A DNA stretch of 64,000 bases from contig NC_019791.1 in the NCBI RefSeq assembly GCF_000317795.1, positions 1,302,001 through 1,366,000 of the forward strand, written 5' to 3'. The notes under the pieces are model-generated. The model saw only the letters and a list, made by a program, of their open reading frames with translations. It was not told the origin of the DNA and did not search any database. Origin of the DNA: Caldisphaera lagunensis DSM 15908 (GTDB lineage Archaea > Thermoproteota > Thermoprotei_A > Sulfolobales > Acidilobaceae). The position numbers were made by a program, and so were the translations under genes. Numbering within the stretch: position 1 is the stretch's first letter; each line of letters begins with the position of its first letter. Shown here one piece after another: positions 2,706 through 11,784 of this stretch.

Positions 2706-2815
2706 CCCGCCGTAGCTCAGCGGTAGAGCGCCCGGCTGTAGTGGGACAGGGCTGTATCGGCCTTATCTTAGCCGATACCGGGTGGTCCGGGGTTCAATTC
2801 CCCGCGGCGGGACCA
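2706..2815 (+). tRNA. tRNA-Tyr (GTA) with 35-nt intron
   Basis: All cloverleaf parts can be drawn: acceptor CCCGCCG/CGGCGGG (2706-2712 with 2805-2811), D stem GCTC/GAGC, anticodon stem CCCGG/CCGGG (2731-2735 with 2778-2782), T stem CGGGG/CCCCG with loop TTCAATT, discriminator A and an encoded CCA at 2813-2815. The anticodon GTA is at 2738-2740. An intron at 2742-2776 sits at the canonical 37/38 position and contains a strong hairpin ATCGGC/GCCGAT (2756-2761 with 2771-2776). Splicing would need the endonuclease, one subunit of which is encoded at 63.4 kb. The exact intron ends could shift by a base. Confidence 0.95.
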
Positions 2816-10381: not shown

Positions 10382-10386
10382 TTTTT
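10382..10386 (+). terminator. T-tract after tRNA-Ala
   Basis: Five T residues directly follow the tRNA discriminator base (10382-10386), consistent with U-tract termination in archaea. No hairpin is seen. Confidence 0.35.
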
Positions 10387-10497
10387 ATTAAAAAAGTTAT
10401 TGAGGTAATTAGACGAAATAATATAAATGAAGTATAGCATTATCTTTCTCATGTTAGTAGAAACATTTTTATACCTAATTTTAGCTTTTGTTGATTA

Positions 10498-10680
10498 TTG
10501 ACGAAAAATCTCCAACATTGGCAAGGTGAACTACCCTGCCCTCATGGAAGGGGGCAAAAGTCCACTTAACCCCCATCTAGTTAAAAAGGGCGTAAGAGTA
10601 AGGTATGTTAAGGTTGTTTACCAAGCTGGATGAGATGAATGGATTATCTAAATGGATAGTTACGAGCTAAACTCTATGCT
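10498..10680 (+). ncRNA. GC-rich structured segment: candidate ncRNA, long leader, or TnpB 3'-end relic
   Basis: Between tRNA-Ala and the radical SAM gene lie 302 bases. The left part is plain AT-rich DNA with a promoter-like AAACATTTTTATACC ending near 10474. From about 10500 the DNA is much richer in G and C than other spacers. It has a hairpin TGCCC/GGGCA (10537-10541 with 10552-10556) and TTAAC/GTTAA (10566-10570 with 10580-10584). The sequence GTGAACTACCC (10526-10536) followed by this hairpin recalls right-end RNA of IS200/IS605 elements. A frame open from 10502 reads VNYPALMEGGKSPLNPHLVK and stops at TGA 10631; another ends [14 protein letters not shown], so a decayed coding end is also possible. 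I cannot decide between these. Confidence 0.4.
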
Positions 10681-10683
10681 AGA

Positions 10684-11784
10684 ATGAGTATAATTAGAAG
10701 AATATGCAGGGATGAACTAATGGTGCTGTGGCTGATAATAACAACCGGTAAATGCAATTTAAAATGTGATTATTGCGGAGGATCTTATCCAAATAAATTT
10801 GTACCTTGGAATATAAAATACGATATAGAAAAATTAAAAGAGTTGATTTTAAAGGATAATTTCCCTACTGTTATATTTTATGGAGGAGAACCGTTATTAA
10901 ATTATAAATATATAATGAATGTTATGGATAACATAAAAAAAGCAAGATTTGGAATACAAACAAATGGTCTTTTAGTTAAACTTTTACCAGAAGAATATTG
11001 GAAAAGAATTAATGTTGCATTGTTATCCATAGATGGAAGAGAAGAAATAAATGATAAACATAGAGGAAAAGGGGCCTACAATAAAGTTATTAATGCTGTA
11101 AAATACTTAAAGGAAATAAATCCTAATATAGAGACAATTGCTAGAATGACTGTAACAAAGGATTCTGATATATATGAGGAGGTTATGCATTTAATAAAAC
11201 TAAAATTATTTGATAAAATACATTGGCAGCTTGATGTAATATGGGATGAAAAATGGGACTTTAATTCATGGGCTGAGAACAGCTATCTTCCTGGTCTTAA
11301 GAAATTAATGGAATATTTTTTAGATGGTTTAAGAAATGGAAGATTGATAAAAATTATTCCTTTTCTTGGTATATTAAGCGCTCATTATCATCAAGGATTT
11401 ATAGGATATCCATGTGGGGCTGGATATAAATCTGTAACAGTTTCTAGTGATGGAAGAATTTTATCATGTCCAATAGCTGTAAGAGAAAATTGGTCGGTTC
11501 TTGGTTATGTAAATAAAGGTTTTAATTTAATAAAAGACCCCTTGCCTGATTATTGTAAAAATTGTGATTTAAAAAGGTATTGCGGCGGTAGATGTTTATA
11601 CATGCATATGGAACCTTATTGGGGCAAAGAAGGATTTATAAGCGTTGATAATATTAATAAAAAATACATTAAAATGGTTTTATCAATAATACCTGAGGTA
11701 GATAATTTGATTAAAAATGGTATTATAAGTTTAGATAGCCTATATTATGACCCAACTCTTGATTCAACAGAAGTAATCCCATAG
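10684..11784 (+). CDS. Radical SAM/SPASM enzyme, putative peptide-modifying (AF1577-like)
   Basis: A radical SAM protein of up to 366 residues. CNLKCDYC (C24, C28, C31 from the first ATG) is the SAM-binding 4Fe-4S motif, YGGEPLL the GGEP motif, and the C-terminal region [10 protein letters not shown]...CP...[14 protein letters not shown] is a SPASM-type auxiliary cluster domain. This layout resembles the TIGR04084 (AF1577) group annotated as peptide-modifying. Starts at 10684 and at ATG 10720 (which would place the first cysteine at residue 12, more usual) are both possible. No precursor peptide is obvious nearby, except the uncertain short frames upstream. Substrate unknown. Confidence 0.85.

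Follow-up and report, generated by a model that had tools for sequence, protein, structure and literature searches.

IS605-type elements of the haloarchaeon Haloquadratum are known to shrink to terminal-only palindrome-associated transposable elements (PATEs) of 52 bp by repeat-mediated deletion of their core (PMC3119063). In Sulfolobus islandicus, IS605 elements are predicted to insert at TTTAA, and their right ends terminate in a conserved TTCAC (PMC11043419). Here, a stretch of 64,000 nucleotides of Caldisphaera lagunensis DSM 15908 (positions 1,302,001 to 1,366,000 of NC_019791.1, referred to as the window) was analyzed, and 55 bp between its tRNA-Ala and a radical SAM gene were identified, with high confidence, as a dead terminal-only IS200/IS605 element of the PATE type, whose middle was deleted and whose two ends were fused. 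What is new is a further case of this already described kind of remnant in another archaeal order. The element resembles the terminal-only PATEs of H. walsbyi (derivatives of HqIRS46 and ISHwa23) in that IS605-type ends appear fused by core deletion between near-terminal palindromes, and in having a length of about 52 bp, no transposase gene and no terminal inverted repeats (PMC3119063). Unlike those, it belongs to the order holding Caldisphaera and its relatives, has the target TTTAA and the terminus TTCAC of the Sulfolobus IS605 type, and carries an inverted hairpin tip; its shared repeat comprises about 15 nt with mismatches, compared to 19-22 bp in H. walsbyi (PMC3119063). With the IS605 of S. 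islandicus REY15A, which encodes TnpB and a right-element RNA (reRNA, or omega-RNA), it shares insertion after TTTAA and a right end finishing in TTCAC, but there tnpB and an reRNA of ~176 nt are retained, whereas here the coding sequence and the RNA scaffold are gone (PMC11043419).

The locus had attracted attention in an initial annotation as a GC-rich patch at about 10500-10640, and this was borne out: GC content of 10500-10639 was 45% against 31.2% window-wide (99.3rd percentile of 140-base windows). The peak coincides with the 55 bp (54.5%, 99.7th percentile of 55-base windows), and the flanks have GC contents of 24.5% (10383-10525) and 34.5% (10581-10719). The motif GTGAACTACCC occurs once in the window and is the reverse complement of an IS200/IS605 right-end terminus. 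Its proposed likeness, together with a GC-rich hairpin, to the end of a TnpB element proved correct, as it belongs to a right end on the minus strand that is fused to a left end.

When the segment was compared by BLAST with its own genome, a single contig of 1,546,846 bases, many partial matches were obtained, the strongest all over the core of the segment. Read on the minus strand, these correspond to left ends (L002-L005) and right ends (L006-L008) of one family. A left-end covariance model (R1) was built from seven other copies, with the window copy left out, and recognized the window copy with 46.3 bits (E=3e-14 in the window, E=7.4e-13 genome-wide), placing it among 14 strong left ends in the genome. 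The right end was identified by alignment to L006 over 28 nt with three mismatches. The two ends overlap at a common near-terminal repeat, CATGAGGG (10539-10546), and follow each other on the minus strand as left end, then right end, which is the correct order and orientation for the IS200/IS605 family. TTTAA adjoins the left end and is not duplicated next to the right end. The identity of the ends, the order and strand in which they lie and the target motif are read directly from these alignments. On the sequence evidence, the GC rise and the hairpins are predicted to be the transposase-recognition ends of the element rather than an RNA gene. Coordinates are collected in Table 1.

Table 1. 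Features of the fused element, its surroundings and related deleted copies (window positions unless marked G000:C1, the genome of C. lagunensis).
Feature	Position	Strand	Basis
55-bp terminal-only IS200/IS605 element, left end fused to right end (very probable)	10526..10580	-	Left-end model R1; local alignments to L002 left end and L006/L008 right ends
TTTAA target / insertion-site motif, 5' of the left end on the minus strand	10581..10585	-	All seven left ends of alignment A1 have TTTAAC
Left-end part: CTAGATGGGGGTTAA, hairpin GTGGAC-TTTT-GCCCCC and TTCCATGAGGG; tip of the hairpin inverted when compared with other copies	10539..10580	-	Alignments
Right-end part: CATGAGGGCAGGGTAGTTCAC, terminus TTCAC	10526..10546	-	28-nt local alignments to L006 and L008 right ends, few mismatches
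Lineage-specific segment carrying the element, between tRNA-Ala and the radical SAM gene	10382..10719	.	Absent in same-genus loci
Radical SAM/SPASM gene, TIGR04084 (AF0577) family; neighbor, outside the element	10720..11784	+	NCBIfam TIGR04084, E=2.5e-171, 569 bits (cut-off 225)
Deleted copies of ~300-326 bp (among others)	G000:C1:594035-594357, 174129-174454, 760694-761013, 525063-525384, 401929-402249, 1018103-1018423	.	Paired end matches

A right-end model returned 12 strong right ends genome-wide. Pairing of end matches gave about ten copies of roughly 230-326 bp (mostly 300-326 bp), one copy of 1.6 kb and two terminal-only copies, the second of which (G000:C1:1001406-1001487) has a junction different from that of the window copy. 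The interior of the roughly ten non-autonomous copies can be aligned to copies from a second genus of the family (G030), and in a consensus fold of this interior, computed from the own copies and those of G030, 15 of 67 pairs show changes on both sides. The 1.6-kb copy (L023, 1,617 bp) is decayed and holds broken tnpA and tnpB remnants between family ends; the longer copies agree with it in their left end and in their final hairpins. The only Y1_Tnp match in the genome is partial (profile positions 48-121 of 121) and lies inside this copy. No intact TnpA/Y1 transposase was found in the genome, nor an intact tnpB, its three TnpB loci all having stops or being fragmentary; therefore the genome no longer appears to encode anything that could mobilize the family. 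The copy interior may derive from the 3' region of tnpB, the seat of the reRNA in such elements, and matches to the 1.6-kb copy are short there. Possibly, the roughly ten deleted copies are omega-RNA-bearing miniature inverted-repeat transposable elements without an intact TnpB in the genome.

Fused copies are not confined to C. lagunensis. A model made from three fused copies, which favors its own source copies, was searched over 214 genomes of the order and matched in 21, many of the matches being ordinary left ends. Since the loci of only the best matches were read, the number of fused copies is a lower bound: fusions ~52-58 bp long that share this geometry were present in at least ten genomes including this one, from families f1, f8 and f11, and nine of these genomes lie outside this one, in two further families (f8 and f11). 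A longer end-only copy of ~105 bp, which keeps two right-end hairpins, was observed in a genome of the same genus (L087/L109, G001:C23:18149-18259).

The near-terminal hairpin is almost the same in both ends, with CCCCTTCCATGAGGG in the left and CCCCATTCATGAGGG or a similar sequence in the right end; the two ends are fused within this hairpin. At the junction lie the common CATGAGGG and a near-repeat of ~15 nt, and only the deleted allele of this site was available. We infer the mechanism of deletion, the order of events and the loss of activity. An ancestral element, or its ~320-bp deleted derivative, would have inserted on the minus strand, 3' of TTTAA. The interior would then have been lost by recombination or replication slippage between the two nearly identical hairpin sequences close to the termini, leaving 55 bp. 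At some point the tip of the left hairpin was inverted, putatively by strand switching: of its 16 nt (10548-10563, minus strand), 14 agree with the reverse-complemented family consensus, compared to 9 with the consensus itself.

Four observations weigh against the identification as a fossil of fused ends. The inversion of the hairpin tip is atypical of this family, and was not clearly seen in the other nine aligned terminal-only copies. The right-end model alone scored the window copy weakly (E=0.28 genome-wide), because most of what it models is deleted there. No deletion intermediate is known at this locus. Finally, an empty site specific to the 55 bp was not found, since relatives lack the entire segment around it; a search with the joined flanks gave only short, weak matches elsewhere.

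The 55-bp form could alternatively be a mobile unit that arrived already fused and was moved in trans by the TnpA of another element, instead of being deleted in place. Very similar fusions of 52-58 bp in ten genomes of three families are in favor of this, as is the finding that all six strain-specific ISHwa23 insertions in Haloquadratum are of the 52-bp form, which was read there as possible mobilization (PMC3119063). However, this genome shows no burst of multiple identical 55-bp copies, its other terminal-only copy has a different junction, and a junction in sequence common to both ends predicts recurrent independent deletion. We therefore consider arrival as a ready-made unit unlikely at this locus. 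A broader proposal is similarly doubtful. It holds that the IS200/IS605 superfamily has no smaller mobile unit in the order than the 52-58-bp form, a self-standing substrate that is moved in trans by Y1 transposases and spreads within and between genomes rather than recurring as a deletion product. Bacterial REP/REPIN sequences with RAYT (TnpA-REP) transposases are likewise very short palindromic elements related to Y1 transposases of the IS200/IS605 type (PMC8266576, PMC3116915). REPs are high-copy extragenic repeats tied to a domesticated transposase, whereas the fused copies here are few and retain a left end that differs from the right end as well as a flanking TTTAA, and the search for an intact Y1 transposase was negative.

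Regarding function, an inert fossil is the best-supported reading, although a putative, species-specific effect of the inserted DNA on the radical SAM gene is possible. The initial annotation had proposed a structured leader controlling this gene, and the location upstream of it together with a TATA-like box at 10466 (TTTTTATA) speaks for a 5' leader or promoter region. The box is present, but carries little information, as the same 8-mer occurs 43 times in the window on both strands. Moreover, in the two same-genus genomes in which the locus could be read, the gene follows the CCA end of tRNA-Ala after ~29 (L031/L113) and ~48 nt (L030/L112), compared to ~338 nt here, so that the segment is absent at both orthologous loci. 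The core is accounted for as a transposon remnant, and its right end points away from the gene. A regulatory leader is thus very improbable. Most simply, the segment would have been gained in this lineage, with parallel loss as the alternative.

Outside the 55 bp, the segment had no convincing relatives in DNA, phage, plasmid and joined-flank searches. A remnant of an integrated virus or plasmid beside the tRNA was rejected, as the tRNA end is not repeated in the segment (the best alignment, at chance level, covers 9 nt) and phage and plasmid collections gave no match. Candidate gene fossils, with putative names read from translations, were not adopted either. Matches to a peptidase (L014), an Sm-like protein (L020) and a PRPP-synthetase-like protein (L015) are likely due to chance, because their E-values per genome were only 1e-3 to 7e-3 in a search of 98 genomes; the overlap with an ABC-transporter gene (L011, E=5.8e-5) falls largely within the right end. 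For the radical SAM gene, the ATG at 10720, where the same-genus proteins begin, is a more probable start than 10684. The nearest named relatives of this gene come from Acidilobaceae archaeon UBA158, with 86% identity, and from Caldisphaera sp. KMA_Bin23, with 73%.

The suggestion of an unannotated non-coding RNA was not supported, as Rfam gave no match to the segment. In the covariance-model check only two tRNAs in the window matched at gathering score, with chance-level matches at a relaxed threshold. The two hairpins described initially exist, but the fold of 10470-10690 was only mildly better than that of shuffled sequence (z -1.5 on the plus and -1.4 on the minus strand); values around -1.5 offer no support for a structured RNA. 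Folded as single-stranded DNA, the 55 bp were unremarkable too. As to an orphan omega-RNA, the S. islandicus TnpB7 needs an reRNA of ~176 nt, and activity is sharply reduced when the part derived from the coding sequence is shorter than 113 nt (PMC11043419). That the 55 bp function as an omega-RNA guiding TnpB in trans is barely conceivable: the right end keeps the side of the terminal hairpin and TTCAC, after which a minus-strand guide would begin, and in S. islandicus a guide RNA that is expressed at a different site can be used by TnpB (PMC11043419), but at most 55 nt of the element are left, the scaffold of ~113-176 nt including the tnpB 3' region is deleted with the interior, and an intact tnpB was not found in the genome.

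Apart from this locus, window positions 2706-2812 (plus strand) have an Rfam match, and ARAGORN assigns a tRNA-Asp (anticodon atc) at 2732-2815. The sequence reads as tRNA-Tyr (GTA) with its anticodon loop split by an intron of ~33-37 nt.

Taken together, a GC island in AT-rich archaeal DNA is here the scar of a transposon and not an RNA gene, which calls for caution in screens that use a rise in GC content to find non-coding RNAs. Terminal-only IS200/IS605 remnants, described in a haloarchaeon, recur at near-constant length across several families of this order, and therefore the question whether such short elements are scars or still mobile becomes testable.
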